64,000 nucleotides of DNA from Larkinella rosea (GTDB lineage: Bacteria; Bacteroidota; Bacteroidia; Cytophagales; Spirosomataceae), in assembly GCF_003858635.1 (NCBI RefSeq), contig NZ_RQJO01000008.1, forward strand, positions 1,364,001-1,428,000. The letters are read 5' to 3'. Made by a program: the position numbers and the translations under genes. A model generated the notes under the pieces. That model saw only the letters and a program-made list of their open reading frames with translations, ran no database searches and was not told where the DNA came from. Shown here one piece after another: positions 5,217-58,673 of the stretch. The stretch's first letter is position 1, and the number at the start of each line of letters is the position of its first letter.

Positions 5217-5289
5217 GATTGAGTGAATGAGCGATTGAGTGAAGGATTAAAAATTACGCTTTTTCACTCAATCGCTCATTTACTCAATC
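5217..5289. repeat. Intergenic long-arm inverted repeat (GAGTGAATGAGCGATT type)
   Basis: Arms 5217-5243 and 5263-5289 pair over 27 nt with one mismatch around a 19-nt loop, filling the gap between the DUF1080 and TIM-barrel genes. The arm is built from repeats of GATTGAGTGAA. It starts five bases after a stop codon and ends 16 nt before the next start. Confidence 0.85.
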
Positions 5290-5305
5290 TCTCAATCAAA
5301 CCTTC

Positions 5306-6184
5306 ATGAAAACTCCTTCCCGCCGTTCGGCCATCAAAACCCTGGCCGGAACCGCCCTGACCTTTTCTGCGATCGACTCTTTAGCTGCTGAAATGGACGC
5401 TACAAAAACCGCCTTTCCGGCGTTGAAAGGCCGGATCAACCACTCGGCCTGCAAATGGTGCTACGGCAAAATTCCGCTGGAAGACTTCGCCAAAGCGGCC
5501 AAGGAAATTGGCCTGACCGGTATCGACCTGCTCGGCCCCGCCGACTGGCCCATTGTGCAGAAATACGGGTTGACCTGCTCCATGGCGCAGGGCGCCGGAA
5601 AAGGCATCAACGACGGTTTTAACGATCCGCGTCTGCACGACGAACTGGTGGCCAGCTACGAAGCCATTTTTCCGAAACTGAAAGAAGCCGGTTTGAAGAA
5701 CGTCATCTGTTTTTCGGGCAACCGCCACGGGATGGACGACCAGAAGGGGCTGGAAAACTGCGCGATCGGTCTGAAACGACTGATGAGCAGCGCCGAAAAA
5801 CACGGCGTGGTGATGGTGATGGAGTTGCTCAATAGCAAGGTCAACCACAAAGATTACATGTGTGACAAGTCGGCCTGGGGCGTTGAACTGTGCAAACGCG
5901 TGGGCTCCGAAAACTTCAAGCTGCTGTACGATATTTACCACATGCAGATCATGGAAGGTGATATCATCCGGACGATCCAGCAAGATCACCAGTATTTTGC
6001 CCATTACCATACCGGCGGAAATCCGGGACGCAACGAGATCGATAATTCGCAGGAACTCTATTACCCGGCCATTATGCAGGCCATCGTCGACACCGGTTTC
6101 AAAGGCTTTGTTGCGCAGGAGTTTATTCCAAAACGCGATCCGCTGACCTCGCTGCGGGAAAGCATCGCAATTTGCGACGTGTAG
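5306..6184 (+). CDS. Exported sugar isomerase/epimerase-like TIM barrel (hydroxypyruvate isomerase-like)
   Basis: 292 residues. The N-terminus SRRSAIKTLAGTAL is Tat-like (twin Arg, then a hydrophobic stretch), with a cleavage region near SLAAE. The body is an AP-endonuclease-2-type TIM barrel. Probable metal ligands are the Glu of VMVMELLNSK, the Asp and His of LLYDIYH, the His of AHYHTGG, and the Glu of VAQEF, the set used by hydroxypyruvate isomerase and ketose 3-epimerases. Export together with the DUF1080 protein suggests work on keto-sugars in the periplasm. Family assignment is firm; the exact reaction is not. Confidence 0.82.
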   Translation: MKTPSRRSAIKTLAGTALTFSAIDSLAAEMDATKTAFPALKGRINHSACKWCYGKIPLEDFAKAAKEIGLTGIDLLGPADWPIVQKYGLTCSMAQGAGKGINDGFNDPRLHDELVASYEAIFPKLKEAGLKNVICFSGNRHGMDDQKGLENCAIGLKRLMSSAEKHGVVMVMELLNSKVNHKDYMCDKSAWGVELCKRVGSENFKLLYDIYHMQIMEGDIIRTIQQDHQYFAHYHTGGNPGRNEIDNSQELYYPAIMQAIVDTGFKGFVAQEFIPKRDPLTSLRESIAICDV

Positions 6185-6186
6185 GG

Positions 6187-6261
6187 ACGTGCCCACGGAC
6201 TTTAGTCCGTGATTCCTGTAAAACTCGGACTAAACAGGGCCGCCCGGCGGTCCGTAGGTAC
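6187..6261. repeat. Dispersed palindrome family A, paired copy
   Basis: Left copy 6187-6211 has the core CACGGACTTTAGTCCGTG. The right copy (6226-6261, opposite orientation) is a variant with a GC-rich insert splitting the core (CGGACTAAAC...GGTCCGTAGGTAC). The same family occurs at 14416, 39375, 42907 and 52179. The element begins three bases after the TIM-barrel stop codon. Confidence 0.8.
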
Positions 6262-6269
6262 CGTAAATA

Positions 6270-6301
6270 AAAGGCTTCTCTGTGACCGGGGAAGCCTTTT
6301 T
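6270..6301 (+). terminator. Rho-independent terminator
   Basis: AAAGGCTTC pairs with GAAGCCTTT around a short loop, followed by T residues. It closes the DUF1080/TIM-barrel transcript. Confidence 0.8.
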
Positions 6302-6358
6302 ACGTCTATGTAGGATTAGGGAATTCGTTTGAAACGCATCTTCCAAAATCCGCTTGCC

Positions 6359-7453
6359 ATGAACACCGATACGCCCGATCAGTATAGTAGCCTACTGAGC
6401 GACATCAGCCGCCAGATTTTACAAAGCCGTTACCGGGCCGCCAAGCTCGTCAATCGTGAGTTGCTGCTGCTTTACTACGCCGTTGGAAAACGATTGTCTG
6501 AGAAGATTGCTGCCGAGAAGTGGGGCGCAGGTGTGTTAGAAAAATTGTCGGCTGATTTGCAAAAGCAGTTGCCGGGCCTGCGGGGCTTTTCATACCGCAA
6601 TCTGAGAAATATCCGCCAGTTTGCTGATGAATACAATGCTCTAATTGGGCAGTTATTAACGGCCAAAAGTCAAACTATTGATAATCAGGAGGATTTAATT
6701 TGGCAGTTAACGACTGCCAAATTGGAGAACTTCGATGTTGACATCTTCTTAAGTGTCGGATTTACCCACCACATCCTGTTACTAAATCGCTGTCATGATT
6801 GGAATGAGCGATGGTTTTATATGCAGAAGGTTGTCGTAAACCAATGGACCATTGACATGCTTGACTGGCAGATAAAATCGAAAGCCTATCAAAAGCGTGA
6901 CCAGACATTACCCAATAATTTTGCCGCTACGCTGACCGAAACTATACGTGATACGGCCTTACAGGCCTTCAAAGACGAATACTTGCTCGATTTTATCAAC
7001 GTCGAAAAAGACGACGAGCGCGTCGTTGAAAAAGGCATTGTACAGAATATCCGCGAATTCATTTTGAAAATGGGCACCGGTTTTTCGTTCGTTGGCAATC
7101 AATACCGGTTGGTGGTGGATGAAAAGGAGTTTTTTGTGGATCTGCTATTTTTTAACAGACAGTTGCAATGCCTGGTTGCGGTGGAATTGAAGCGTAGCGA
7201 GTTCCGACCGGAGTATTTGGGGCAGCTCAATTTTTATGTCAATGTCCTGAATGGTCAAATTCGATTGCCACACGAAAATCCCAGTATTGGCATCCTGCTT
7301 TGTAAAGAGAAATCAAATGCAGTGATTGAATACGCTTTTCAAGGGTACACCACACCAATGGGCGTATCGACCTACCAACTCAGCTCCGATCTTCCCGAAC
7401 ACCTGCGAGCGGTGTTACCCGATCCGGAAGCGTTGAGAAAGTTGCTGGACTAA
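6359..7453 (+). CDS. DUF1016 / YhcG-type PD-(D/E)XK nuclease-domain protein
   Basis: 364 residues from ATG 6359; an in-frame TTG at 6329 is an alternative. The N-terminal part (about 10-160) matches DUF1016_N, with KLVNRELLLLYYAVGKRLSE and GFSYRNLRNIRQFADEY. The C-terminal nuclease core has D261 (FFVDLLFF) and E276/K278 (VAVELKRSEF), then GQLNFYVNVL, a complete PD-(D/E)XK site. Family members are patchily distributed, travel with restriction-modification and toxin loci, and E. coli YhcG is one. Here it sits alone between two terminators. Its sequence is visibly more AT-rich than its neighbours, which suggests recent transfer. The target is unknown. Confidence 0.9.
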   Translation: MNTDTPDQYSSLLSDISRQILQSRYRAAKLVNRELLLLYYAVGKRLSEKIAAEKWGAGVLEKLSADLQKQLPGLRGFSYRNLRNIRQFADEYNALIGQLLTAKSQTIDNQEDLIWQLTTAKLENFDVDIFLSVGFTHHILLLNRCHDWNERWFYMQKVVVNQWTIDMLDWQIKSKAYQKRDQTLPNNFAATLTETIRDTALQAFKDEYLLDFINVEKDDERVVEKGIVQNIREFILKMGTGFSFVGNQYRLVVDEKEFFVDLLFFNRQLQCLVAVELKRSEFRPEYLGQLNFYVNVLNGQIRLPHENPSIGILLCKEKSNAVIEYAFQGYTTPMGVSTYQLSSDLPEHLRAVLPDPEALRKLLD

Positions 7454-7468
7454 TGGTGTGGAAAAACA

Positions 7469-7504
7469 AACCCCGGCTTTCCTGTGCACAGGAAAGCCGG
7501 GGTT
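7469..7504. terminator. Bidirectional terminator between convergent genes
   Basis: A perfect palindrome with 18-bp arms (AACCCCGGCTTTCCTGTG and its complement) flanked by A and T residues, between the DUF1016 stop at 7453 and the convergent exported-protein stop at 7526. It should work in both directions. Confidence 0.85.
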
Positions 7505-7525
7505 GCACATAGGTCAGGTGTAAAA

Positions 7526-7933
7526 TTACTTCGCCGGAGCGTAGGTAATAAACCGTTGCGCCTGAACGGCGGGTAACGCGCCGATCTCGACCTGACGGAC
7601 AACGACCTGCTGCCCGGCGCTGATCTCAAAATAATACACCCCGGTTTTCATTCCTTCGAAGTCGAATTTACGCCAGTGGCTGGCCGGCGTTTTGCTCAGG
7701 TCTTCCTGGTAAAGAACCGTGTTTTTGGCGTCTTTCAACCGGATGGTCACCTTCTTAGGCTGGCGGACGGCCAGCATTAAATTGATTTTTTCCTGGGCTC
7801 CCAGAAACATGCTTACTTCAAAAGCATTGTTGTCAGATGCGGGTTCACTGGCTGCGGTTACCTGGGCGTTCGATACCGGAATCAGGAAGCCCAAAAAAAG
7901 AATCATCAGTACTTGTTGTGCGATCGTTTTCAT
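7526..7933 (-). CDS. Small exported protein with beta-sandwich-like domain
   Basis: 135 residues from ATG 7933; the longer frame only adds a Gln-rich tail from a repeat-like stretch. A signal peptide (LMILFLGFLIPVSNAQ) ends near residue 24. The mature part, with KVTIRLKDAKNTVLYQEDL and MKTGVYYFEISAGQQVVVRQVEIG, has the rhythm of the short beta-sandwich proteins of Bacteroidota that resemble secretion-tail or DUF3244 domains. I do not recognise the exact family. It is divergent from the LysR gene, with 94 nt between them, and may be controlled by it. Confidence 0.72.
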   Translation of the reverse strand: MKTIAQQVLMILFLGFLIPVSNAQVTAASEPASDNNAFEVSMFLGAQEKINLMLAVRQPKKVTIRLKDAKNTVLYQEDLSKTPASHWRKFDFEGMKTGVYYFEISAGQQVVVRQVEIGALPAVQAQRFITYAPAK

Positions 7934-7972
7934 GATTTGCTGTTGTTGTTGTCTGTGACAAAGGTGCGGCAT

Positions 7973-8003
7973 TTTGAAATATTAGCATAACGAATTATTT
8001 TTG
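7973..8003 (+). promoter_or_regulatory. Promoter of the LysR/MetR-like gene
   Basis: TTTG at 7973-7976 and TATTTTTG at 7996-8003 with exactly 19 nt between match the Bacteroidota -33/-7 consensus. Transcription should begin near 8010, right at the operator-like palindrome. Confidence 0.7.
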
Positions 8004-8011
8004 TCAAAATC

Positions 8012-8026
8012 ATGAATTTTATTCAT
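8012..8026. promoter_or_regulatory. MetR-type operator (TGAA-N5-TTCA) before the LysR start
   Basis: The perfect dyad ATGAA-TTTTA-TTCAT contains TGAANNNNNTTCA, the consensus known for E. coli MetR. It ends one base before the start codon at 8028 and covers the predicted transcription start, a position suited to autorepression. Confidence 0.65.
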
Positions 8027-8027
8027 C

Positions 8028-9002: not shown

Positions 9003-10391
9003 GTGTCTTCTTCTTCTGATTCTGCACCCTTGCCCCGGCGACTGGGATTCTGGCAGGCTACGGCCCTGAATATGATCGATATGGTCGGCATCGGGCCATT
9101 TGTGGTGCTGCCACTGGTTATTCACACAATTGGCGGGCCGCATTTTCTCTGGGCCTGGATTTTAGGAGCGGTTATTTCGCTGATCGACGCGCTGGTCTGG
9201 TCGGAGTTGGGGGCGGCTTATCCGCAGGCCGGCGGGAGCTACAATTTCCTCAAAATTGCGTATGGCGAAAAACACTGGGGCAAGATGGTTTCGTTTCTCT
9301 ATGTCTGGCAAACCATGATTCAGGCACCGTTGGTGGTGGCATCGGGTGCCATCGGCTTTGCCCAGTATGCGTCGTATCTCATTCCGCTCGAAGGCTGGGA
9401 GCGCAAGGCAGTTTCCGGCGGTGTCGTCATCCTGATTACGTTGCTATTATACCGTAAAATTGAGTCCATCGGCCGAATTAGCATTCTCCTTTGGGTGTGC
9501 GTACTGGCTACGCTGGGCTGGATTATCTGGGGTGGTCTGACGGGTGGGACGCAGGCGGTTTCGCTGGCCTTACCCGCCGGCGAATCGCTGTCCGGACTGT
9601 TCGGTGCCGGTCTGGGAATTGCCTCCGTAAAAACCATTTATTGCTATCTGGGCTACTACAACGTGTGCCATCTGGGTGGAGAAATCCGCAATCCGTCGCG
9701 GAATATTCCGTTGAGCATGCTGGTTTCCGTCGTCGGTATTGCGGCTTTGTACCTGGCGATGAACTGGAGCGTCGTCAGCGTGATTCCGTGGCAGGAAGCG
9801 CAGCACAGCGAGTTCATTATCAGTGCGGTTATCGAGCGGTTGTATGGCTCGCGGGCGGGGACTATCGCTACGTTTATGGTGCTGATCGTGGCGTTTTCGT
9901 CGCTATTTGCGGTTTTACTGGGTTATTCGCGGGTACCGTACGCAGCCGCAGCCGATGGTCAGTTTTTCCGCATTTTTGCCAAACTGCATCCAACCCGTCA
10001 GTTTCCGTACGTTTCGCTCTTGTTTTTGGGTGCGTTGGGCTTCGGGTTCAGTTTGCTCTTTCGCTTATCAGATGTCATTACGGCGATTCTGGCGATGCGC
10101 ATCGTGGTGCAATTTATCGGACAAGCCATCGGCTTGCTGCTCCTGCATCGACGCAAACAGGCGGCTCATTTTCCGTTTAAAATGCCGCTTTATCCCTTAC
10201 CGGTTTTGCTGGCCATCGCCATCTGGACGTTCATCTTCATTTCGACCGGCTGGACGTTCATGCTGTCGGGTCTGACGGTCATTGGTCTGGGAATCATTGT
10301 CTTTATCATCACCGCCCGAATTCGGGGACAATGGCCGTTTGAACATACGGATCAACCCGTTACGCCCCTGGTGAACCCGAAGAAATTGTGA
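9003..10391 (+). CDS. APC-family amino-acid permease
   Basis: 462 residues with about 12 membrane segments and no signal peptide. The first helix carries NMIDMVGIGPFVVLP, the Gly-rich unwound region that binds substrate in APC transporters. The second region, SELGAAYPQAGGSYNFLK, is the usual APC signature (ELG...P..GG.Y). The start is GTG 9003; no ATG fits. It lies 66 nt after the MetR-like gene and may be its target, which would point to methionine or a related amino acid, though this is inference. Its 3' end overlaps the convergent helicase gene by 32 nt, which is uncommon here. Confidence 0.88.
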   Translation: MSSSSDSAPLPRRLGFWQATALNMIDMVGIGPFVVLPLVIHTIGGPHFLWAWILGAVISLIDALVWSELGAAYPQAGGSYNFLKIAYGEKHWGKMVSFLYVWQTMIQAPLVVASGAIGFAQYASYLIPLEGWERKAVSGGVVILITLLLYRKIESIGRISILLWVCVLATLGWIIWGGLTGGTQAVSLALPAGESLSGLFGAGLGIASVKTIYCYLGYYNVCHLGGEIRNPSRNIPLSMLVSVVGIAALYLAMNWSVVSVIPWQEAQHSEFIISAVIERLYGSRAGTIATFMVLIVAFSSLFAVLLGYSRVPYAAAADGQFFRIFAKLHPTRQFPYVSLLFLGALGFGFSLLFRLSDVITAILAMRIVVQFIGQAIGLLLLHRRKQAAHFPFKMPLYPLPVLLAIAIWTFIFISTGWTFMLSGLTVIGLGIIVFIITARIRGQWPFEHTDQPVTPLVNPKKL

Positions 10392-13300
10392 GCTGTTCGG
10401 CCAGACGTCCCCGCCAGAACTCGCGGCTGTAGACCCGCTGGAACGGCCAGTTTTTCAATTGCAATGCAAACGGCGTGTAGGCGTGGGCATCTTTCGGGCT
10501 GCTCTCGTAGTATAGATCATCGTCGGTCAGCAGCAATCCTTCGTATTGTTCGGCGGTTTTCCGGGTCAGATCTGCAAAGGGCAATTCTTCAATTAAACCG
10601 AGCTGAGGGTCTTTTAACGCATCTTTCAACAGGCGCGCGCCCGGAACGCGGTCGGTTTGGCGGGGCTGGGGCAAATACGCACCATCGGCCACCGACAAGG
10701 CGTATTCAAGGTATTGCTTCAGGATTTTAGGTCCGACGTTGGCCGTATTTTCAACCGAAAGTTGTTGCGGATAGATGCTCGTGACTACGTAGACCCGTTC
10801 GCGGGCCCGCGTGACGGCCACATTCAGGCGGTTTTCACCTCCTTTGGCGTTCAGGCTACCGAACTGCGCTGATAATCGCCCGCGCGGATCGGGTGCGTAA
10901 CCGATGGAAAAAATGATCACATCGCGCTCGTCGCCCTGTACATTTTCAATGTTTTTGACGAAAGTTGTTTCCGAAGTTACGGTTTCGGATACGGTTTTTG
11001 GGTCCGATTCCGCACCGGTTTCCGGTTTCCCGTCCAAAACCGCCAGCGCGTTCTCTTCCAGCAATTCCTGAATCAGTTGCTGCTGCTGAAAGTTGAACGT
11101 TACCACGCCAATCGAGCGCCCCGGCAACTCGTCGGCCAGTTGATCGATCAGTTCGACCACAGCGCGGGCTTCGGTTTCGTTGGTATTATGTTCCCATACG
11201 CCTTTGACGTTCAAATACCGGATCGCGGGCTCCCGGCGATTAAGCTGTTGAAAATCAGGAAGCAGATGGAGCGAATTTTTGTAAAAAAGCCGGTTTGAGA
11301 AATCGATCAGATCAATCGAGCGGCTGCGGTAATGGCCGCGCAACTGGGTTTGCGGGAAATAGTGCGTCGCCAGATCGAGCAGCGATTCCACTTCCAGCTC
11401 GATCGGAATTTCTTCATTCGGCTCGGTTTCAAACCGGATACGGTACAAATCGCTCGGCTGAAGCTGCTTGCTGTCGCCGGTAATTACCACCTGTTTGGCG
11501 CGGTAAATCGCCGGAATACCATTTTCAGCAAAACACTGCGAGGCTTCGTCAAAAATCACCAGATCGAATAGCTCCGGTTGCATCGGAAAAATGGCCGACA
11601 CCGATTCCGGCGACGCCATCCAGCAGGGAACCAACTGAAATACCTCGTCCGCATGTTGTTCCATCAGCTTCCGAACCGGCCAGATATTCCTTTTTTTTGT
11701 CACCTGATGATTCAATTCCCGGTACGTAACCAGGTTATTCAAGCGATTGAAAGCCAGATTCTGGTAGGCTCGTTCGCGGAGTTTGACCAGCAGAATCTGA
11801 CGGCTCAGGGTCTGTTTTTTACGAACACCTTCCTGTAACACACTTTCTAACTGATTGATTTTTAACGATGAAACGCCACGCAAAATGGGGTGCTGCATTT
11901 CCACGTGTTCGATCCAGGCCAGATGCAGACTATTCAAAAACCGCTCCACAGAGAAGGGTTCGCCCAGCCGCTGAACAATTTCCCGTTCCGCCGTCGTAAA
12001 GTTTTCGTTCAGCCGATCGGTTTCAATCAGCAAATCGACATCACGTTCCAACGATCGAATCAACACATCGGTTTGGGTGGGTTCCTGCCACAGCCGCTGG
12101 ATTTGCGATTCGCTCAAAAAGGATCGCCAGCGACCGAGTTGTGCCGCAACCTGACGACCGGTTTCCAGGAGTTGCCGGGCGGTTTTGGCAAAAATCGCGA
12201 CGGTTTCCAGCCGGGCTTCGGGCAAGCTTGTCAGCCACGCAATGGCGTTCAGTCGCAAAACCGCTTCGAGCGCCTGACGGGCCAGCCGGACGGTTTGCTG
12301 TGCGTTCTCAGGCGTTACATCCTGGCCAATTTTCTGGCCGATCTGCTGACGAATGAGTTCAAACCGAATGCGACGCTGCACTTTCTCCAGCAAAACCGGC
12401 AGTGTTTCGTCGGAAAGCGCCAGGCCGTTGACGGCCGCGAGTTGTTGCAAACCGGTTTTATCTTTACTGAATAATCCCCAAACCGTTCGCCCGACAAACG
12501 ACGAACGGCTTTCAATGGCCTCCTGCAACCGTTGCGCCGTGTTGGGCAAATCCGTTATGGACAGGCTTTTTTCGATACCTTTTCCGCCCAGGCAGTCGTT
12601 TAACTCCTGTTCAAGGTGCTCTAAATTAGTCGGTTCAAGGCTGAAAAGCGGATGGTTGGGCTGCTGTTGCAATCGCCGGACCCACTGCCAGCGTTGCGTT
12701 GACGGGTCGGCCTCCAGCAAGGTCAGCAAGGCCGTTGTTTCCCATTCGTCTTCCTGCACGGTTTGCCAGTCGGTCAGTGAAAACGAGCGAGTGGCCAGGT
12801 TCTGCGCCTGTTCGGTTACGGTTTTTACAAAAACCGGTAATTCACTCAGCAGCTTTTTGAGCGTCGGTAATTGGCCGAATGAAAAAGTCGCGAAGGAAAC
12901 GCGGTCGGCCCACGGATGGCCGGGACCCAGCCGGTTCAGATAAGCACCGTATTCGTGCAATTTCTCCACAAAACCGGTGATGGAATTCGGCCGAAACTGG
13001 GTGTATAAATCGTTGATCGGGATGGTTTCGGCCGCTGGATCGCTGGTCAGGTACAATTGCTTGACCGAAACACCGGCTTCGGTTTCATCGAACAACGCTT
13101 CTTTGAACGTCTGCAACTCCGCCAGCGTCTGATCGATCCGGCGGCTTTCCTGATCAAAATTGCGTTCCAGCAAAATGGCATCCAGGCCGTAATTCTGTTT
13201 GCGGTATTCTTCGACGCGCTCAATCTGGCCGGCCAGTTGATCATACAACGCCTTGCGGTCGTTTTTGAAGTCGTGAATCAGGGCTGAAAAGGGTTGCATC

Positions 13301-14415
13301 CCTACCTGCCGCAGTCGTTCATAGACTACATCAAGGGCTGCCCGTTTCTGGCAAACCAGCAAAACACGCTTGCCCTGCGCGGCAAAATCAGCCATCAAAT
13401 TCCCAATCAACTGGGATTTGCCGGTTCCCGGAGGCCCCTGCACCACCATCGATTCCCCGGTTTTGATCCGCCGAATTGCTTCCTCCTGCGACGCATCCAG
13501 GGCCAATGGCGTGTGCAGCGTTTCCTCGCGGATGGTGGGAAGAGGGGAGGAGGGGAGGAGGGGGGGAAGGGAGGAGGGGAATAGGGTCGCATTGGCTTCC
13601 CCTTCACTCCCTTCTTCCTCTCCTCCACCTCTCCCTTCCTCTCCTTCCAGCAAAACATCATAATCCGGTACTAAATACGAACCGGCTTGCGGAAAAATGC
13701 CCAAAACCGCTTCGGGCTGGAGTTTCAGCTCGCCGTTTCGCTCCAGTTTATCAAGGTCGGTTTTCTTGACCGCGTTGAACCACTGAAGCTGGTCGGTAAA
13801 AAGTTCCTGATTGAAATTGATTTCCAACGGGCTGGTTTTCAGCCATTCGTAGAGTTGCGTGCGAAAAACCGTAGCGTCTTTATCGTATTCATCCAGCGTG
13901 TGTTCCAGCACCGCATCGGGCAGGATATACTGATTATAATACGCATAGGCCATCAGAAAGCTGCGGTTGAGCGTGATGGATTCATCCTCCCGCCGAACCA
14001 GCATCCACTTGTTCGTCTGTTGCTGAAGATGAACCGGAAAAAAAATCAGTGGCGCGTGGATCACCGTACCATCGGCCAGCTTTCCGCGCACGAATGGATA
14101 GCCCACGTACAAATCTTCCGAACCGCGTTCTTCTTCGATAAACCGGTCGGTACGGGCAATTTTCCGGAGTTTTTTACTGACCTCGTTGCCTTTTTCCAAC
14201 CGGCTGTCGAGTACGTCGCAGAGCGGAATGGCCGCTCGGCGGGCGATTAACTGGCGGATCAGTTCGAAGGATGATTTATTATTCAGAAAATCAATTTCGT
14301 GCAGATCCAGAAACTGCTCGACGGGCAGACTCGTCAGCAGCAGCGAACGGTTGCGGCTGCTGAGGTTGGTCAGGCGTTTCAGATAGGCTTTGAGAACGGT
14401 TTGGGGGAGTTGCAT
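10360..14415 (-). CDS. Very large SF1 (Upf1/Dna2-like) DNA/RNA helicase, DUF4011 type
   Basis: 1351 residues from ATG 14415; the longer frame would translate repeat family A. The N-terminal about 255 residues match DUF4011-type proteins. The helicase core begins with Q-motif-like LDASQEEAI and Walker A GPPGTGKS (near residue 328), then FDEASQC (motif II, near 954), ITGDSKQLQP (III), LRGHYRS (IV), and NVAVTRARERVYV (VI, near 1200). The C-terminal region with LLLTDDDLYYESSP...FQRVYSREFW resembles the terminal domain of such helicases. About 620 residues of helical sequence separate motifs I and II. Residues about 256-293 are a low-complexity insertion encoded by a palindrome (13536-13648). Relatives occur in DNA repair and in defence loci; its role here is unknown. 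Confidence 0.88.
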   Translation of the reverse strand: MQLPQTVLKAYLKRLTNLSSRNRSLLLTSLPVEQFLDLHEIDFLNNKSSFELIRQLIARRAAIPLCDVLDSRLEKGNEVSKKLRKIARTDRFIEEERGSEDLYVGYPFVRGKLADGTVIHAPLIFFPVHLQQQTNKWMLVRREDESITLNRSFLMAYAYYNQYILPDAVLEHTLDEYDKDATVFRTQLYEWLKTSPLEINFNQELFTDQLQWFNAVKKTDLDKLERNGELKLQPEAVLGIFPQAGSYLVPDYDVLLEGEEGRGGGEEEGSEGEANATLFPSSLPPLLPSSPLPTIREETLHTPLALDASQEEAIRRIKTGESMVVQGPPGTGKSQLIGNLMADFAAQGKRVLLVCQKRAALDVVYERLRQVGMQPFSALIHDFKNDRKALYDQLAGQIERVEEYRKQNYGLDAILLERNFDQESRRIDQTLAELQTFKEALFDETEAGVSVKQLYLTSDPAAETIPINDLYTQFRPNSITGFVEKLHEYGAYLNRLGPGHPWADRVSFATFSFGQLPTLKKLLSELPVFVKTVTEQAQNLATRSFSLTDWQTVQEDEWETTALLTLLEADPSTQRWQWVRRLQQQPNHPLFSLEPTNLEHLEQELNDCLGGKGIEKSLSITDLPNTAQRLQEAIESRSSFVGRTVWGLFSKDKTGLQQLAAVNGLALSDETLPVLLEKVQRRIRFELIRQQIGQKIGQDVTPENAQQTVRLARQALEAVLRLNAIAWLTSLPEARLETVAIFAKTARQLLETGRQVAAQLGRWRSFLSESQIQRLWQEPTQTDVLIRSLERDVDLLIETDRLNENFTTAEREIVQRLGEPFSVERFLNSLHLAWIEHVEMQHPILRGVSSLKINQLESVLQEGVRKKQTLSRQILLVKLRERAYQNLAFNRLNNLVTYRELNHQVTKKRNIWPVRKLMEQHADEVFQLVPCWMASPESVSAIFPMQPELFDLVIFDEASQCFAENGIPAIYRAKQVVITGDSKQLQPSDLYRIRFETEPNEEIPIELEVESLLDLATHYFPQTQLRGHYRSRSIDLIDFSNRLFYKNSLHLLPDFQQLNRREPAIRYLNVKGVWEHNTNETEARAVVELIDQLADELPGRSIGVVTFNFQQQQLIQELLEENALAVLDGKPETGAESDPKTVSETVTSETTFVKNIENVQGDERDVIIFSIGYAPDPRGRLSAQFGSLNAKGGENRLNVAVTRARERVYVVTSIYPQQLSVENTANVGPKILKQYLEYALSVADGAYLPQPRQTDRVPGARLLKDALKDPQLGLIEELPFADLTRKTAEQYEGLLLTDDDLYYESSPKDAHAYTPFALQLKNWPFQRVYSREFWRGRLAEQLTISSGSPGA
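13536..13648. repeat. Purine/pyrimidine-tract palindrome inserted in frame in the helicase gene
   Basis: A G/A-only tract (13536-13580) is followed after about 16 nt by a C/T-only tract (13597-13648) that is its imperfect reverse complement. On the coding strand it gives a Glu/Gly-rich then Pro/Ser/Leu-rich linker between the DUF4011 part and the helicase core. The length keeps the frame. Confidence 0.8.
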
Positions 14416-14440
14416 ACGTACCCACGGATTAAAGTCCGTG
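14416..14440. repeat. Dispersed palindrome family A, single copy
   Basis: ACGTACCCACGGATTAAAGTCCGTG, one base upstream of the helicase start codon. It thus forms part of the 5' leader of the helicase mRNA. Confidence 0.75.
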
Positions 14441-14869
14441 TTTGGAAGAAATGAACTGATACCGGATTGGTAACGAAAAGAAACCGGGAAAGAATGCCCT
14501 GATCGCGCAAATGGCAAGAACAACTTCCCCGTGGCCTATGTACAAAACTACCCAAAAAGCCGTAAAAAAAGAATCCTTCCCGGCCCGGCAGAGGAGGTAT
14601 CCAAACCGGCTATTTAGGGTCTATCCGGGCATAAATCGGGCTGATTGAGCCCTTTTGCCTGCTTTTGGGGCTGGATTATACGTTCCAAAGCCGTCCTGAT
14701 GAACCAATAATTACCGCACAACTGATTGTGGTAAAATCGTACATTGAATGGCTATAAATGTATATTAAAACAACAAAATATTATTATAATATTGCGATAT
14801 AATTATATAAGTCGCAATTGTTATCATAGATACTGTGCTTTTATCCTAACGGGAATCCTTCTTTAATCC
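14441..14869. other. Intergenic region between divergent helicase and sigma-like genes
   Basis: 429 nt, very AT-rich from about 14750. On the minus strand, CAAAACTA at 14543-14550 reads TAGTTTTG and is a good -7 element for the helicase, although no clean -33 is placed. Toward the small sigma-like gene there is a dyad ATTGCGA-N14-TCGCAAT (14791-14818). Overlapping it, 14783-14798 matches the arsR operator palindrome of this window at 14 of 16 bases. No coding sequence seen. Confidence 0.5.
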
Positions 14870-16389: not shown

Positions 16390-16732
16390 GAGTCGTTAAT
16401 TCAATAAAAATTGGGATAGAATGAGCAATTGGGTTTCAGAATCTGAATTGAGTTAAACATTCTGCCGGTAGATCAGCAAGTTGTAAAAACAGTTGCCGAT
16501 TCGGTGCTGAATTTTATTGCAATATAGCTCTATTAAGTAACAGGTGATGATGCCCGTTGATTCCTTATTTTTACAAAAAGGGTTCAGCGCCGGGATTCGG
16601 CGGATTAATGGAAAAATAAAGCGTTGATTGGTTGATAATCTGAACTGGGATTCCGCAGATTAAAACGGTTCGCCGTAGCGGGATTAACTGGGATAGCTGC
16701 CGCAATCTTATTCTGAAATCTTTTATATCCTC
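16390..16732. other. Intergenic region between PKS 3' end and terC
   Basis: 343 nt with no plausible gene. It must hold the terC promoter on the minus strand, but I find no good CAAAnnTA element. Its right half is the loop and left arm of the inverted repeat that ends inside the polyketide synthase gene. Confidence 0.5.
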
Positions 16733-16763
16733 TTAATCCTTTAATCCGCGGAATCCGAGTTCA
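16641..16763. repeat. Long-arm inverted repeat reaching into the PKS coding sequence
   Basis: Arms 16641-16664 and 16740-16763 pair over 24 nt with two mismatches. The word is GGATTCCGCGGATTAAA. The right arm codes for the last residues of the polyketide synthase (ELGFRGLK). Confidence 0.8.
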
Positions 16764-17905
16764 AGATGCTTTATAGCGGTTTTTTCTACGGGCGGTTTTG
16801 CCGGCACAATTTCCAGAATCATCGATTCGAGCGTGAGACCGGGGCCAAAAGCACAGCTCAGGATGTGGCCCGCTCCCGGTTCCCGCAACAGGTGATTTCC
16901 GATTTCTTTCAGGACAAACAAAACCGTTGCCGACGACATATTGCCGTATTGCCGCAACACCTCGTAAGCAAAGCGGTTTTCGGCCGGATCGATGCCGAGT
17001 TGCTGCTCAATCACTTCCAGAATTTTGCGGCCACCGGGGTGCATGGCGTAGTAAGTGATGTCTTCGATGGCGAGTCCGCTGCGCTCCAGCAACCGGGAAA
17101 GGGTTTTTCCGATGCCTTGCCGGATGACGGTCGGCACCTCGGAGGTGAGCGTCATTTCAAAACCGTGGTCGTTGATGATCCAGCCCATGTCGCTTTTTCC
17201 TTCCGGCAACAGGTCGCAAAAGAACGTCCGAAGTCGGAAAGAAGGCCCCGGTTTTTCCGGATGCGGCTCCGATTCGACGAGAACAGCCGCGGCTCCGTCG
17301 GCGAAGAGGGCGTTGGAAAGGAGATGGTCGTCATCGGGTTTTTTCTGAAAATGGATCGTACAAAGTTCCAGGCAAACGATCAGGACACGCGCCGATGGAT
17401 CGGCACGAACGAACGCATCGGCGGTTTTCAGTGCGTTGAAGGCGCCATAACACCCCATAAAGTTGATGGCCGTTCGCTGAACGGTAGTCGGAAGCTGGAG
17501 GGCTTCAATCAGGTCAATATCCAGACCCGGCGCATACATCCCGGTGCAGCTGACCGTAATCAAATGGGTAAAACCGCTGGGGTGGCGGGTCCGGTATAAA
17601 TCCTGAACGGCGGCCACGGCCAGCGGCAGGGCATCCTTTCGATAACGTTCCATCCGCGCTCCGACCGTTGGAAAAGGTTCGAGATCCGGGGTATTCGGAA
17701 AAAATGTATATTCACCCGGAGATGCACCATAATCGGGCAATACCGAATGTCGCCGGTCGATTCGGGTCAGGCGATACAAGGCCTGGAGTTTCCGGCGGTT
17801 GGGGGCATCGAGTTGGAGAGCCTCCGCCATAAACGAAGCGATTTGCATCTGCGAGAAACCGTGCTGCGGTATGGCGGTACCGATGGCGGTGATGTAACTA
17901 TCCAT
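16733..17905 (-). CDS. Type III polyketide synthase (chalcone/stilbene synthase family)
   Basis: 390 residues, the usual length. The Cys-His-Asn triad is complete: Cys152 in NFMGCYGAFNALK, His289 in YAMHPGGRKILE and Asn322 in YGNMSSATVLFVL. The C-terminal CAFGPGLTLE is the conserved GFGPG loop. Bacterial relatives extend acyl-CoA starters with malonyl-CoA to alkylresorcinols or alkylpyrones. A UbiA prenyltransferase gene is divergent from it with a 126-nt gap; that pairing suggests a prenylated or membrane-bound phenolic lipid. The last about 9 residues are encoded by a repeat arm, so the native C-terminus has been replaced or extended; the triad and GFGPG loop are intact. Confidence 0.9.
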   Translation of the reverse strand: MDSYITAIGTAIPQHGFSQMQIASFMAEALQLDAPNRRKLQALYRLTRIDRRHSVLPDYGASPGEYTFFPNTPDLEPFPTVGARMERYRKDALPLAVAAVQDLYRTRHPSGFTHLITVSCTGMYAPGLDIDLIEALQLPTTVQRTAINFMGCYGAFNALKTADAFVRADPSARVLIVCLELCTIHFQKKPDDDHLLSNALFADGAAAVLVESEPHPEKPGPSFRLRTFFCDLLPEGKSDMGWIINDHGFEMTLTSEVPTVIRQGIGKTLSRLLERSGLAIEDITYYAMHPGGRKILEVIEQQLGIDPAENRFAYEVLRQYGNMSSATVLFVLKEIGNHLLREPGAGHILSCAFGPGLTLESMILEIVPAKPPVEKTAIKHLELGFRGLKD

Positions 17906-28964: not shown

Positions 28965-29591
28965 ATGAGTAAACGGCTACCTTCGGAAGAAGCACAACAA
29001 TTGTGGCAGGAATACCGGGCGGGCGACATGTATGCCCTCGCTAAAATCATGCAGAGTTATTACGCCGATCTCTTTCACTGGGGAATGCGCCTGCAGGCCG
29101 ACCGGGAATTTGTGAAAGACTGCATTCAGGAGCTTTTTTTAAACCTCTGGAAACACCAGAAAACCGTTCGATCAGTCGAAAACGTGCGGGCGTATTTGCT
29201 CGTCGTACTCAAATCCCGTATCCTGCGCGAGCTTTCCAGAAAACACACCACCCACCAGTCGACACTCTCGGAAGAATATGCTTTTTCGGTCGAATTTGCC
29301 GCCGATGTCCAGTTGATCGAGGAGGAGAACGAAGTATACCAAATCCGCAAACTGGAACACGGAATCAGTCATTTACCCGAACGTCAGAAAGAGCTGATTT
29401 ACCTGCGGTTTTACCAGAACCTGAGTTTCGAGCAAATCGCGGATGTCATGCACCTGGGTCGCCAGTCCGTTTACAACCTGCTCCAGAAATCCCTGATCAG
29501 CCTGCGGAAAAACTGGCCGGTGAGCTGCCTGGCACTTCTTATTCAGTTTACGGTTTACGGTTTTCAGTTTACGGTAGCTGGCGTGTGCTAG
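28965..29591 (+). CDS. FecI-type ECF sigma factor
   Basis: 208 residues. Region 2 (about 20-95) includes FVKDCIQELFLNLWKH and VRAYLLVVLKSRILREL. Region 4 (about 135-185) has LPERQKELIYLRFYQNLSFEQIADVM and GRQSVYNLL, the helix-turn-helix for the -35 region. The adjacent FecR-type gene and the STN-bearing SusC make this a cell-surface signalling trio, as in FecIRA: substrate binding at the outer-membrane transporter is passed to FecR, which frees the sigma. The last about 20 codons run through a repeat arm (29551-29574) that encodes VYGFQFTVA, so the natural C-terminus was replaced. Confidence 0.9.
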   Translation: MSKRLPSEEAQQLWQEYRAGDMYALAKIMQSYYADLFHWGMRLQADREFVKDCIQELFLNLWKHQKTVRSVENVRAYLLVVLKSRILRELSRKHTTHQSTLSEEYAFSVEFAADVQLIEEENEVYQIRKLEHGISHLPERQKELIYLRFYQNLSFEQIADVMHLGRQSVYNLLQKSLISLRKNWPVSCLALLIQFTVYGFQFTVAGVC

Positions 29592-29648
29592 CTGTCGCAC
29601 GAATAGCACGCGCGGGGAACCGCGCCGTAAACTGAAAACCGTAAACCG
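29551..29648. repeat. Long-arm inverted repeat overlapping the sigma gene 3' end
   Basis: Arms 29551-29574 and 29625-29648 are a perfect 24-bp match, built of GGTTTACGG and TTTTCAGTTTACGG words. A second, imperfect hairpin (GCGTGTGCTA/TAGCACGCGC) is nested in the loop. The element fills the gap to the FecR gene and its left arm is coding. Confidence 0.9.
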
Positions 29649-29663
29649 AATACCGGAAAAACT

Positions 29664-34416: not shown

Positions 34417-34504
34417 TTTCGCGGAGTTAAGCGGAGTTTAAAGAGTTAAACAGAGAAAAAATAACTCCGCTTAACTCTTTAAACTCCGCTCAACTCCGCG
34501 AAAC
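34417..34504. repeat. Intergenic long-arm inverted repeat, family B
   Basis: Arms 34417-34449 and about 34471-34503 match over 33 nt with one mismatch. Words: CGCGGAGTTAAGCGGAG and TTTAAAGAGTTAA. It fills the susC-susD gap. A relative lies at 37786-37884. Confidence 0.9.
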
Positions 34505-37775: not shown

Positions 37776-37785
37776 ATGAATTATG

Positions 37786-37884
37786 TCGCGGAGTTAAGCA
37801 GAGAAAAGAAGAGTTAAGCAGAGTTTTTATGAAATTTCTTTTTCCTCCGCTTAACTCTGCAAACTCCGCTCAACTCCGCGAAAC
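37786..37884. repeat. Intergenic long-arm inverted repeat, family B
   Basis: Begins TCGCGGAGTTAAGC and ends CAACTCCGCGAAAC, nearly the same outer words as the copy at 34417. The inner words are CAGAG-type variants. It lies between the aldolase and permease genes. Confidence 0.85.
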
Positions 37885-37916
37885 AACCCCCTTAAATCCT
37901 AAACCGAAAACTCTTA

Positions 37917-39374: not shown

Positions 39375-39479
39375 GACGCAGACGTACCCACGGACTTTAG
39401 TCCGTGAATTACTGTCCACTGAGTTAAGTTGGGAACGCTGAGGATTACACGGACTTTAGTCCGTGGGTACGTCTGCGTC
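39375..39479. repeat. Dispersed palindrome family A, paired copy
   Basis: Two inverted arms of 32 nt (39375-39406 and 39448-39479) pair with two mismatches. Each contains the self-complementary core CACGGACTTTAGTCCGTG, so either one large or two small hairpins can form. Outside it, ACCGTAAACTGTATACCG (about 39489-39506) resembles the words of the repeat at 29551. Confidence 0.9.
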
Positions 39480-42906: not shown

Positions 42907-43026
42907 CGTACCCACGGACTTTAGTCCGTGTAATCTATGCGACTCAAATGATTCCTCCGTTGTCGCCCGCGACAACGAAAGTAAAAATCGGTTTTTAAAA
43001 AATACGGACTAAAGTCCGTAGGTACG
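42907..43026. repeat. Dispersed palindrome family A, paired copy
   Basis: Arms 42907-42931 and 43002-43026 (CGTACCCACGGACTTTAGT and complement) start at the first base after the stop codon. A smaller hairpin CGTTGTCG-N4-CGACAACG lies in the loop (42959-42978). Confidence 0.88.
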
Positions 43027-47848: not shown

Positions 47849-47908
47849 TTAGGGTAGTCATTCACTGAAAACATAATGGGCTGAACTGATAAGGGAAAGG
47901 CGGTTTTA

Positions 47909-48068
47909 AGTCCCGTAGGGACGAAATATTTGTAGAATACAACGATCTCCAACCGGTTCCGGCCTGCCTTTAGGGCCGCAATCTCATGCTAAAATTGCGC
48001 ACCCAAAGGCACGCGCCTGTACGCGCAAAATGACTTTACTGCTACAAACATTTCGTCCCTACGGGACT
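47909..48068. repeat. MITE-like element, family C
   Basis: Outer arms 47909-47935 and 48042-48068 pair over 27 nt (GTAGGGACGAAATATTTGTAG with a few changes). A second inverted pair is nested (47966-47982 with 47994-48010), and a short GCGC/GCGC hairpin follows. The total of 160 nt fills most of the 377-nt gap between ogt and the next gene. The copy at 52296 shares the arm words. Confidence 0.85.
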
Positions 48069-48225
48069 GAAACCCGCATTGAGTTATTTCGTAACGTGTT
48101 TGGAAAGTGTTTCGGTTTTTTATGGACCCTTTCAATAAGAAAAACAACTCCCGGTGCAACAGCTTCTCATTCTGGTAACGAAAAACTAGTTTCTTAGTTA
48201 AATTGCGCAACCAAAAGGAAACGTT

Positions 48226-52172: not shown

Positions 52173-52178
52173 TTTTTA

Positions 52179-52218
52179 ACGTACCCACGGACCGGCGGGA
52201 GGCCCCGTTTAGTCCGTG
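52179..52218. repeat. Dispersed palindrome family A, split variant
   Basis: GTACCCACGGAC, a GC-rich insert, then GTTTAGTCCGTG: the same split form as the right arm at 6226-6261. It lies in the 5' leader of the GH88 gene. Confidence 0.75.
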
Positions 52219-52295
52219 AGCAATTTGTGTAGATTTAAAATGAAGAATTAATGTAAATGGTGTCTTGGTTATCAGTGGATAGTGAGTTTGTTAAG

Positions 52296-52449
52296 CACCA
52301 TAGGTGCGAAATATTTGTAGTAAAGTAGATTTCACTAGTTCGCCCGCGTGCCGTCAGGTACGCAATTAGCAAGGTGTTGCGTACCTGACGGCACGCGGGC
52401 GGATTATAAATATTTCCTAATTCTACAAACATTCGACCGCTACGCGGTC
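52296..52449. repeat. MITE-like element, family C
   Basis: Outer arms have GCGAAATATTTGTAG (left, 52296-52320) and CTACAAACATTCG (right, 52423-52449). Nested inside is a perfect 25-bp hairpin (52341-52365 with 52377-52401; GCCGTCAGGTACGC words). It fills the 312-nt gap between lyase and GH88 genes together with the family A copy; nothing else is seen there. Confidence 0.85.
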
Positions 52450-52484
52450 AGTAAGTTGGCACCTCATAACTTTCTAAAACTCCT

Positions 52485-57000: not shown

Positions 57001-57132
57001 ACGTTCACGAAATACACCGGTTTTGATCCGGAAGTAAACCGGTTTGGACAAAGTACGCTGAGCCAGGGGAGCGACTACGGGAGTTATCCGGGCAATAAAA
57101 TGATGCTGGTTGGACTGAACATTGGACTCTAA
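54088..57132 (+). CDS. SusC/RagA-type TonB-dependent transporter (no STN domain)
   Basis: 1014 residues from ATG 54088; ATG 54055 is possible but adds residues before the signal peptide. Signal peptide to about 29 (LLICFQLPVLLMAQQ). Carboxypeptidase-D-like domain (about 33-105; VSGRVTGTGGDAIPGANVVV), the SusC-linked segment EEVVVVGYGTQRKSDVTGS, plug (about 115-235; LYVIDGFPVYN) and barrel to the C-terminus, ending in an aromatic/Leu-rich strand. Unlike the 30901 transporter it lacks STN, so it is not FecR-coupled; the phased repeats upstream suggest HTCS or AraC control. Imports products of the lyase/GH88/esterase side. Confidence 0.95.
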   Translation: MKKNGIYASRWFWIALLICFQLPVLLMAQQTAPVSGRVTGTGGDAIPGANVVVKGTTTGTSTDAQGRFSLNAPSDGTLVISSLGFASLEVNIGGRSQLTVTLAEDQKALEEVVVVGYGTQRKSDVTGSLSSVTSKDIKAVPVTGVGQALQGRAAGVQVTQASNAPGGGVTIRIRGGNSINAGNEPLYVIDGFPVYNESGANLNPNDIESMEILKDASATAIYGSRGANGVVLITTKRGKSGQNRIEFETYYGIQQVRKKLPMLNATEYATLVNEANTNVGRAPVFTQEQIAGFGAGTNWQDEIFREAPIQNYQLTASGGSDKTRYAVSANYLNQQGVIINSKYDRASFRFNFDHKINDRFNIGTSLNVIRSRNNAVPTDADGGTSGTVVYSALNFSPTQPVRNPDGTLVVFNTPGRIQIGSPVAQALGTYNLTVGTRMIGSVFADYKIIPGLTFRTSFGADVNYSKRSLYLSRNTATGTQLSGQASIINNQSSTWLNENTLTYNKTFGNVHNLTLLAGYTMQGNRFESVEARSQGFANDILTYENLGSASTALVPASSASNWQLNSYIGRANYDYSGKYLLTATVRADGSSRFGASNKWAVFPSASVAWRLSEEDFLKGNRVVNDLKLRVSYGLSGNQEITQYQSLATLGTQNANFNNTVVIGIGPSRVANPDLRWETTAQADVGIDVGLLSNRITLTADYYNKKTTDLLLSVPLPYVSGYASALQNLGSIRNQGFELGINSTNLNGAFKWTTAFNIAANRNKVLNLGDQTEFASGDASGHLQLPNSGLVRVGEQIGLFYGYQSSGIFQTQAEVDGSAQKTAKPGDRRYVDQNGDGAINASDRVILGYAQPKFYGGLTNTFSYKGVELSIFMQGTSGNSIFNINRFEQESLTGVSNQSAETLNRWTPTNPSNTIPRANAVGNAYVLSSRQIEDGSYLRVKNINLSYTLPSSLVSKAKLYNVKVYVSAQNWITFTKYTGFDPEVNRFGQSTLSQGSDYGSYPGNKMMLVGLNIGL

Positions 57133-57157
57133 TCGGTTCTAAACCTTTTGTAAGATC

Positions 57158-58597
57158 ATGAAAATCAAGAATATCCTTGCTAGTGCCGCATTGGCTTTCG
57201 GACTCGGAGCGTGTTCGCTGGAAGAAACGCCCCCGTCGTCGCTGGCTCCGGTCAATTTTTATACGAACGCGAACGATGCCACGGCAGCCGTCAATGCGGT
57301 TTACGACATTGCCAATCAGGTGGGCGACCAGAGCCGGAATTTCATCATCATGGGCGATCTGCCGTCGGATGATATGGACCCGTTGCTGAATAACGCCGAC
57401 CGGGTGCAGCTCTGGAGTTTCCAGACCATTGCAACGAATAGCGTGGTGGCGCAAACCTGGCAGGTGATTTACCAGGGCATCAACCGGGCCAACACCGCCA
57501 TCGACCGGATTCCGGGGATTTCGATGGACGAAACGTTGAAAAAACGGCTGATCGGCGAAGCGAAATTCCTGCGGGCCTACTACTACTTCTACCTCGTGCG
57601 CTGGTACGGCGGAGTGCCGCTGATGCTGACCGAAACCCAGTCGCTGAGCGCCGGAAAAGATGTAGCTCGCGCCAGTGCGGATGAGACGTATACGCAAATC
57701 ATCAAAGATCTAACCGAAGCCGAAACTGCCTTGCCGGACAAATTCACCGGGGCTGATCTGGGTCGCGTGACAGCCGGAGCTGCCAAAGCGATGCTGGCGC
57801 GGGTTTATTTGACCCGCAAGGATTTTCCGAACGCCCGCACCAAGGCCAAAGAGGTGATCGATAATGCCGCGAAATACGGGTACGGTTTATTCGACAAATA
57901 CATCGACGTGTTCGCGATTTCCAATAAAAATGGCAAGGAATCGGTTTTCGAGATTCAGTTTGTCGGCGGTGGCAGCGGGCAGGGAAGCGGCATGGTGACG
58001 TATTTTGCGCCCGAAAACTCACCGATTACCGGCCGCGGTTTTGGGTCATTTATCCCGACGATGGATTTATACAACAGCTTCAAAACCGGTGACAAACGAA
58101 AAGAACTGTTCATCAATTCGTACGTCGATGGCGCCGGGAAAACCGTCAATACCTTCCAGCACTTCAACAAATACGTCGATCCGGCGGCCAAGGCGTTTGG
58201 CGATGCAAATAATAATTTCCCGATCATTCGCTACGCCGATGTATTGATGATGTTTGCCGAAGCCGAGAACGAAATCAGCGGCCCGACGGCTGCGGCTCTG
58301 GATGCGATCAATCCCGTTCGTCGCCGGGCGTTCGGCTTTCCGTTAACGGGCGCTTCATCGGCCGATTTCACGGCGGCTTTGACGAAGGACGCGTTCCGGC
58401 AGGCCATTTGGGACGAACGGCGCTGGGAGTTCAACGCTGAAGGCCACCGCTGGTTCGATCTGGTGCGGACCGACCGGCTGGTGCCGCTACTGAAAGCAAA
58501 AGGCAAAACCAATATCACCGAAACGCACAAGCTGTATCCTATTCCGCAGCGCGAACGCGATCTGAACCCGAAGCTGACGCAGAATCCGGGGTATTAA
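57158..58597 (+). CDS. SusD/RagB-type surface lipoprotein
   Basis: 479 residues. Lipobox LGAC19 followed by SLEETPPS. Canonical RagB/SusD features: FYTNANDATAAVNAVYD, the INRANTAIDRIPGI helix, EAKFLRAYYYFYLVRWYGGVPL, and the C-terminal IWDERRWEFNAEGHRWFDLVRT with YPIPQRERDLNPKLTQNPGY. It caps the SusC transporter 25 nt upstream and captures glycan at the surface. This is the standard SusD type, in contrast to the SusD-like_2 type at 34522. Confidence 0.95.
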   Translation: MKIKNILASAALAFGLGACSLEETPPSSLAPVNFYTNANDATAAVNAVYDIANQVGDQSRNFIIMGDLPSDDMDPLLNNADRVQLWSFQTIATNSVVAQTWQVIYQGINRANTAIDRIPGISMDETLKKRLIGEAKFLRAYYYFYLVRWYGGVPLMLTETQSLSAGKDVARASADETYTQIIKDLTEAETALPDKFTGADLGRVTAGAAKAMLARVYLTRKDFPNARTKAKEVIDNAAKYGYGLFDKYIDVFAISNKNGKESVFEIQFVGGGSGQGSGMVTYFAPENSPITGRGFGSFIPTMDLYNSFKTGDKRKELFINSYVDGAGKTVNTFQHFNKYVDPAAKAFGDANNNFPIIRYADVLMMFAEAENEISGPTAAALDAINPVRRRAFGFPLTGASSADFTAALTKDAFRQAIWDERRWEFNAEGHRWFDLVRTDRLVPLLKAKGKTNITETHKLYPIPQRERDLNPKLTQNPGY

Positions 58598-58600
58598 ATT

Positions 58601-58673
58601 TTGAAATGTAAAATGAGAAATGGAAAAGTGTCTGGCAATCCGGCCACTTTTCCATTTCTCATTTTACATTCAA
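58601..58673. repeat. Intergenic long-arm inverted repeat (AATGTAAAATGAGAAATGG type)
   Basis: Arms 58601-58630 and 58645-58673 pair perfectly over 26 nt plus a bulged base. It begins four nt after the susD stop and ends 12 nt before the stop of the convergent gene, so it may serve as a two-way terminator. Confidence 0.88.

Follow-up and report, generated by a model that had tools for sequence, protein, structure and literature searches.

The DNA examined here, called the window below, is a stretch of 64,000 nucleotides from Larkinella rosea (Bacteroidota; contig NZ_RQJO01000008.1, positions 1,364,001 to 1,428,000 of the forward strand), and coordinates are counted from its first nucleotide. 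Many of its intergenic gaps carry inverted repeats with long arms. A sequence-only reading had named twelve such places and described them as families without common sequence, all built to one architecture. We find that the gaps hold two palindrome classes, elements of the repetitive extragenic palindrome (REP) or bacterial interspersed mosaic element (BIME) kind and hairpins whose arms are strings of short degenerate words, hereafter word hairpins, so that at least two classes had been lumped. The elements found in the window are listed below, without strand; ORF stands for open reading frame, vocabulary for the set of words used by a hairpin, and relatives are given by their genome handles (G002 and so on).

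5217..5289, word hairpin with 27-nt arms made of 8-nt words (GATTGAGT GAATGAGC ...)
6189..6261, REP pair, copy 1 with tag GTGC and copy 2 with tag GTAC; read by eye, copy 1 also pattern-matched; copy 2 carries a 15-nt GC-rich micro-insert at about 6235-6249
16641..16763, word hairpin with 24-nt arms of about 10-nt words (GGATTACGC GGATTAAA type) and a 75-nt loop
28795..28864, heptamer hairpin (AGACCAG AGAATAA AGAC) of the GACAAGAGA vocabulary, in a gap that is divergent by ORF calls
29539..29660, heptamer hairpin (GTTTACG GTTTACG GTTTTCA GTTTACG) between co-directional genes
34417..34503, family A hairpin with 39-nt arms of 10-nt words (TTTCGCGGAG TTAAGCGGAG ...)
37781..37886, family A hairpin with degenerate centre
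39375..39479, REP pair with arms extended to 39 nt
42907..43026, REP pair, from the mechanical hairpin list and by pattern match
47897..48080, pair of palindrome-tipped arms (GTCCCGTAGGGACGAAATATTTGTAG), probably REP/BIME-like, layout conserved in G004
52181..52218, single REP with GTAC tag, interrupted by a 15-nt GC-rich micro-insert; read by comparison with intact copies
52293..52450, composite palindrome, probably REP/BIME-like, with outer GAAATATTTGTAG arms (read by eye) and an inner hairpin at 52336-52406 with 30-nt arms
58600..58675, heptamer hairpin with 36-nt arms (GAAATGT AAAATGA GAAATGG AAAAGTG), before a mechanically called minus-strand ORF

Ten of the twelve places named earlier are in our mechanical hairpin list (52296 as the inner hairpin 52336-52406), and 47909 was found at 47897 in a second list. 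The pair at 6187, absent from both lists, and the outer arms at 52296 were recognised by reading the sequence only. Arms in the ten mechanically listed hairpins measure 23 to 39 nt, not the 15-33 nt given before, and sequence is shared after all: 34417 and 37781 belong to one family (A), 6189, 39375 and 42907, with 52181 by eye, to another (B), and 47897 and 52293 have GAAATATTTGTAG and a near-complement of it in common. The description of arms as short repeated words is right for the word hairpins and wrong for the REP arms, which are palindromes in themselves. A position after a stop codon and before the next gene broadly holds for the word class, which lies a median of 6 nt downstream of the nearest stop codon (quartiles -1 to 14, n=77 edges) and 36 nt from the next start (n=69; both by mechanical ORF calls). 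Exceptions are 28795, which occupies a divergent gap according to the ORF list, and the hairpins at 29539 and 16641, each with one arm within the end of an ORF (the 5' arm of the former in ORF 28965-29591, with its stop codon at 29591; one arm of the latter in the minus-strand ORF 16733-17905, with its stop codon at 16733).

The inverted repeats are real and exceed chance expectation. In 464 kb around and including the window (293 gaps in all, search limited to gaps of at least 40 nt) we counted 42 gap hairpins with a score of at least 16, compared with 0 in five gap shuffles and 0 in three whole-sequence shuffles; words similar to those at 16641 recur elsewhere in this sample. Hairpins lying more than 60% inside ORFs of at least 300 nt and arms shorter than 16 nt were left out of the counts. 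The position after stop codons would suit ordinary conserved intrinsic terminators, and a minority of the hairpins look like them: by a rule requiring a short loop and a T run, 13 of 128 gap hairpins are terminator-like and a further 6 doubtful. By the same rule 73 of the 128 are word hairpins with loops longer than 4 nt, some hairpins sit in divergent gaps, and one gap can hold different contents in different species. We drew up the rules that separate REP, terminator, other palindrome and word with the data already in view, choosing the motifs for 'other palindrome' by hand. We rejected conserved terminators as a general account, since gap contents vary among relatives and most hairpins do not have terminator form, and consider this explanation very improbable. 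Described RNA families were rejected as well, as only two tRNAs in the window reach the Rfam gathering score.

The arms of the word class are not palindromic but are strings of degenerate units, 7 nt long or in some cases 8 or 10 nt. Autocorrelation of the 5' arm in 93 hairpins from eight genomes gave z values of 9.7 at lag 7, 8.8 at lag 14 and 4.2 at lag 10 against dinucleotide shuffles; this pool, which contained orthologs, left out self-palindromic and terminator-like hairpins, and 20 of its members were later moved to other classes. A second sample, 26 word hairpins from a separate 400-kb stretch of G007, reproduced the pattern (lag 7 z 6.0, lag 14 z 5.3). As controls, 13 terminator-like arms showed no peak at lag 7 (z 0.0), while 22 self-palindromic arms showed a weak one (z 1.8) and a peak of their own at lag 8 (z 4.5). 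Word order varies between copies and is repeated in the opposite arm, exactly so in some copies.

Different hairpins draw on different vocabularies. Family A has conserved ends and a variable interior (by eye), and single family A arms match 143 times in the 8.17-Mb genome holding the window, to which all genome-wide counts refer, with at most 1 mismatch. The exact arm occurs in 8 of 9 genomes of the genus and in 2 of 50 others, there with one or two matches each, and an exact scan of a named genome collection for the full hairpin, in which own-genome records may be left out, returned 30 stretches, all Larkinella. The GACAAGAGA hairpin pattern matched 36 times in its own genome and once each in 2 of 295 other genomes of the phylum, a draw without another member of the genus. 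The ACGGATT hairpin pattern was present in 2 of 61 genomes of the family, both among the 4 belonging to this genus, and the exact hairpin pattern was not found outside the genus in these 61. In four stretches (80 kb in total) that cover four further genera of the family, hairpins with other word-like arms were seen by eye in two. The GTTTACG/GTTTTCA vocabulary often surrounds a core, GCTGACGC...GCGTCAGC, which occurs with other vocabularies too. Among 19 elements selected by this core (two overlapping), arm identity was 0.705 within and 0.521 between elements, with a maximum of 0.662 in 2000 permutations. A first within/between test on CGGTTTAC heptamers had been dropped and replaced by this one because it picked up coding sequence. 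Arms of family A extending outward into the host flank were found in 4 of 35 elements, two of them orthologs, against 2.8% in the control, which is suggestive only. At L021 around 1470-1620 and at site 44 of the comparison described below, the palindrome runs past the family A ends into the host flank as though the flank had been copied across (flank-extension scores 18, 13.5 and 10.5).

When seven relatives are compared, a gap is often found to be occupied by another palindrome, or by none. The words of 5217 recur in the corresponding gap of G006, the sole relative for which this syntenic gap was fetched, and the vocabulary of 29539 is also seen by eye in the syntenic gap of G002, G003, G005 and G006. 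The gap at 34417 holds family A in G004, G003 and G007 and different hairpins in G006 and G002, with no hairpin seen in G005. The REP pair at 39375 is missing from the syntenic gap of G004 and G007 (a 24-bp gap), and in G006, G003 and G002 heptamer hairpins stand there instead; the pair at 42907 is absent in G006, G003 and G007, reduced to a single REP in G002 and altered in G004. The hairpin at 58600 is present in G004 with one base pair altered on both sides and one base altered on one side. Had each element been unique in the genome and unchanged in relatives, the sequence-only reading would have taken them for ordinary conserved terminators; instead, the two counted families, A and B, are dispersed, and gap contents differ between species.

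For a closer comparison we used three relatives that are about 93% identical to one another (first syntenic stretches), over 400, 400 and 231 kb. This trio yielded 97 hairpins, 14 of them without a syntenic site in a second relative, and 52 unique sites after merging overlaps (site numbers are those of the trio list, with which the merged list agrees for the cited sites up to 45). Reading 25 word sites in G007 against G003 by eye, we found the vocabulary kept at 18 (sites 2, 3, 4, 5, 10, 11, 14, 16, 29, 33, 36, 39, 42, 43, 44, 45, 47 and 60) and switched in place, partly as a mosaic, at 3 (sites 6, 9 and 41). A word hairpin was present in one species only at sites 12 and 46, and another palindrome stood in G003 at sites 34 and 38; in G002, site 44 is empty. 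Both vocabularies are mixed in a mosaic at site 9, whose unusual layout is kept, and this speaks for change in place.

When orthologous hairpins were aligned, changes in one arm were in several cases mirrored in the other. Of 892 arm base pairs, counted with some sites entered in more than one genome pair, 825 were unchanged, 54 were changed on one side and 13 on both sides to a complementary pair; no two-sided change had destroyed the pairing. Entering each site in a single genome pair left 655 unchanged and 43 one-sided cases, and all 9 two-sided changes were complementary; site 42 is an example in a word hairpin. Base-pair and loop comparisons excluded ortholog pairs below 75% identity, segments longer than 600 nt and gapped pairs. 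Larger mirrored differences, which are more telling, were seen at site 19, where a 16-nt GC-rich insert occupies matching places in both arms of G003 and neither arm of G007, accompanied by a mirrored 3-nt difference in both arms, and the 22-nt loop reads the same in both genomes. At sites 19, 26 and 28 the arms with micro-inserts match over 43, 36 and 41 nt with zero mismatches (at 26 and 28 these are the G007 arms), and at site 28 G003 has a different insert in one arm only. The word hairpins themselves provide two-sided substitutions, vocabulary switches and loops. Judged against a null from other sites, the loop is inverted relative to its ortholog above the 99.5% level at three of 27 sites (3, 9 and 33, all of them word sites), and 13 of the 27 show a direct match above this level. 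Site 60, also a word site, has a further inverted loop (score 20 reversed, -6 direct). A looser loop test, which gave 12 inverted and 23 direct among 40 comparisons, was set aside in favour of the 99.5% level because many of the 12 were negative both ways. With the reservations given below, the hairpins show both homogenisation of the arms between orthologs and inversion of the spacer, as do quasipalindrome substrates.

Polymerase template switching between inverted repeats is described as leaving homogenised arms and inverted spacers, in yeast (PMC8604942) and in RNA hairpins (PMC8794818). In these two papers, the effects of such homogenisation or quasipalindrome correction resemble ours in multi-base compensatory changes and loop-only inversions; the systems they describe are scattered inverted repeats, mainly in genes, whereas Larkinella has a dense intergenic set with periodic words and near genus-limited vocabularies. 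A close likeness to the words themselves is the P6b stem-loop of the Nostoc trnL group I intron, which carries degenerate heptanucleotide repeats on both arms, changes length by 7 or 14 nt, uses two repeat vocabularies (Class I and II) with repeated shifts from II to I, and has some indels on both stem sides that were interpreted there as two separate events (PMC3488679, PMC4476775). Degenerate 7-nt units in both arms, vocabulary shifts and some two-sided indels are common to P6b and our hairpins, part of which have 8- or 10-nt units instead. P6b is one intron locus in cyanobacteria, while in this Bacteroidota genus many sites and many vocabularies are involved. The word hairpins lie between genes, outside any trnL intron. 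Another intergenic heptamer repeat type is the short tandemly repeated repetitive (STRR) sequence of cyanobacteria. The 7-nt TAACTGA units known from gaps, also in five Bacteroidetes (PMC4679880), are direct repeats of one fixed heptamer, whereas ours are mirrored hairpins of degenerate units.

Matching arms could also be the product of selection on RNA, with hairpins serving as 3' stabilisers, attenuators or terminators and pairing kept by compensatory mutations while the sequence is otherwise free. Such selection would agree with the median of 6 nt after the stop codon, with several hairpins between co-directional genes and with the distribution over gaps of at least 70 nt, where word hairpins were most frequent in convergent gaps (21 in 85 gaps compared with 35 in 262 co-directional ones in the first sample, 8 in 26 compared with 16 in 109 in G007) and, in the G007 sample, rare in divergent ones (2 in 31). 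In the first sample, on the other hand, divergent gaps (17 in 134) were about as rich as co-directional gaps. A selected RNA should favour G-U pairs on the transcribed strand, but the mispairs in co-directional word hairpins comprise 37 GT and 42 AC (95% interval of the GT share 0.36-0.58), so that RNA selection becomes a weaker account of arm matching; the option of mRNA-stability hairpins raised from the sequence alone is weakened too. In REP-like arms, 7 GT and 20 AC mispairs lean in the opposite direction. Neither the two-sided 16-nt insertion nor the loop inversions would come from point compensation, and words and shared vocabularies are left unexplained. We therefore regard RNA selection as an unlikely cause of the matching; the hairpins may nevertheless have a function in RNA, despite the absent G-U preference.

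In our view the arms of word hairpins are probably kept matched by template switching at the hairpin together with slippage of the words. Homogenised arms and inverted spacers are marks of template switching, and with the precedent of P6b they led us to propose slippage followed by re-matching. A replicating polymerase would switch template at the hairpin and copy one arm from the other; word slippage would make an arm longer and shuffle its words ahead of this copying, and a site would change its vocabulary through exchange with copies elsewhere in the genome. Two-sided changes, insertions in both arms and inverted loops would all follow from such arm-to-arm switching, and we infer slippage as the source of the words and exchange as that of the switches. 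Among the options in the sequence-only reading, the one nearest to the mark for word hairpins is a mechanism that writes inverted duplications into gaps, if this is taken narrowly to mean that an arm can be rewritten with its partner as the model.

Several results weigh against template switching with slippage. Two-sided single-base changes are few, and site 9, where the vocabulary has switched, supplies 5 of the 9. With the pairing shifted by 1-4 columns there were 1-10 two-sided changes, so the observed number is not above this control and it is the complementarity that is informative. Arm indels of at least 3 nt were mostly one-sided (18 single and 8 mirrored calls, from pairs of at least 60% identity and segments up to 400 nt), and only 4 of the 8 mirrored calls, all at site 19, are clear. 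Sites 19, 26 and 28 are REP-like CCCCTAAAGGGG palindromes and not word hairpins, and hence document arm-to-arm copying in this group of genomes, not in the word hairpins themselves. Arm matching is far from perfect: an element's own partner is strictly the best in 8 of the 19 core-selected elements, and best or tied in only 14 of 59 family A elements. Sites 12, 44 and 46, read by eye, gave no example of a word-hairpin site that was cleanly empty and showed a target duplication, and we identified no donor, switch point or strand bias. Finally, arm-to-arm gene conversion would leave the same marks, and the data cannot separate it from template switching. With these points in mind we put forward, tentatively and as a view that may well prove wrong, that Larkinella contains a large population of self-rewriting palindromes, in which an arm is put together by slippage from a small set of heptamers and mirrored by template switching, while exchange among copies gives a site another vocabulary and leaves it in place, the hairpin being inherited as a shape and not as a sequence.

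The other class is that of the REP elements. Family B has 136 genome-wide matches with at most 1 mismatch, compared with 0 for the reversed control; the copy at 52181 is unmatched by this pattern. Its copies are often paired, many about 38-66 bp apart from start to start among the matches listed, and their extragenic position was read for the window copies and some fetched ones. A gene for a putative REP-type HUH tyrosine transposase, HVH motif included, is located on contig 16 (G000:C16), flanked by one intact GTAC-tagged REP on one side and one REP interrupted by a micro-insert on the other. The product scores 76 bits against NF047646, the model of REP-associated tyrosine transposases (RAYT), below its curated cut-off of 80. 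This model matches in 8 of 9 genomes of the genus, over the cut-off in 2 only, and also in 6 of 14 control genomes; several further transposase loci are flanked by different palindromes. We classify family B as REP/BIME with a RAYT, under the reservations that the score is under the cut-off and that the tag is GTAC in most copies read and GTGC in one at 6189, not of the GTAG type. A tagged palindrome, pairing, extragenic position and a REP-type HUH transposase gene with a copy on either side are shared with REP/BIME elements and RAYT (REPtron) as PMC3733652 describes them, the tags there being GTAG or CGTC. A RAYT transposase disperses the REP/BIME elements or is at least linked to them, and to this extent the earlier suggestion of REP elements moved by RAYT applies, although to one family only; the elements at 47897 and 52293 are probably REP/BIME-like as well, without a linked transposase.

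One could extend this to all palindromes, word hairpins included, as non-autonomous mobile elements (REP or miniature inverted-repeat transposable elements) spread by RAYT or IS200-type transposases, with matching arms because the copies are young. The conserved ends and variable interior of family A, its 143 dispersed arm matches, the word hairpins confined to one relative at sites 12 and 46 (of the 25 read by eye), the empty site 44 in G002 and the transposase model matches in 8 of 9 genus genomes, over cut-off in 2, are what such elements would give. Around the transposases at the eight distinct loci read, out of 34 match rows, we saw no word hairpin within 260 nt, and there are orthologous elements in which both arms have changed in situ. 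The word hairpins also lack, by the definition of their class, an arm that is itself a palindrome. We know of no transposon with word periodicity as a feature. A single mobile element for all was rejected, given two classes and many vocabularies, and we hold a mobile origin of the word hairpins in general to be rather unlikely.

The open literature, to which our search was limited (subscription papers were outside its scope), yielded nothing on palindromic repeats of Larkinella or linking REP with template switching and hairpins. New here are the abundance, the vocabularies and the switching at constant sites; the kind of palindrome itself is already known. If template switching with slippage is true, the gaps preserve, for a bacterium, a dense natural record of mutation by template switching, and arm covariation, usually taken as proof of selected RNA structure, can come from the mutation process itself. 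It would also provide many independent sites at which to ask how the heptamer hairpin of Nostoc P6b evolves and why units of seven recur.

Some further observations concern these elements. At window positions 6235-6249 and 52193-52207, at trio sites 1, 19, 26, 28 and 41, and at L181 beside the transposase, the arms or tips of REP, CCCCTAAAGGGG and word elements are broken by GC-rich micro-inserts about 14-20 nt long. These occur in several species, belong to a few related types, and are in some cases mirrored in both arms and in others not. A third abundant palindrome family (CCCCTAAATCCCCTAAAGGGG / CCCCCAACCCCCTAAAGGGGG), at trio sites 7, 13, 19, 21, 23, 24, 26-28, 30 and 49, shows filled and empty sites between close relatives. 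Outside the window, at about 1551280 of G000:C11, a REP pair has arms that run outward into CGGTTTTCGGT, as if inserted in the loop of a heptamer hairpin. Within the long minus-strand ORF 10360-14523 there is a word-like hairpin, purine-rich/pyrimidine-rich, at about 13540-13650, and the orthologous stretch in G006, close to it in length (202 vs 199 nt), differs in most of the hairpin sequence.

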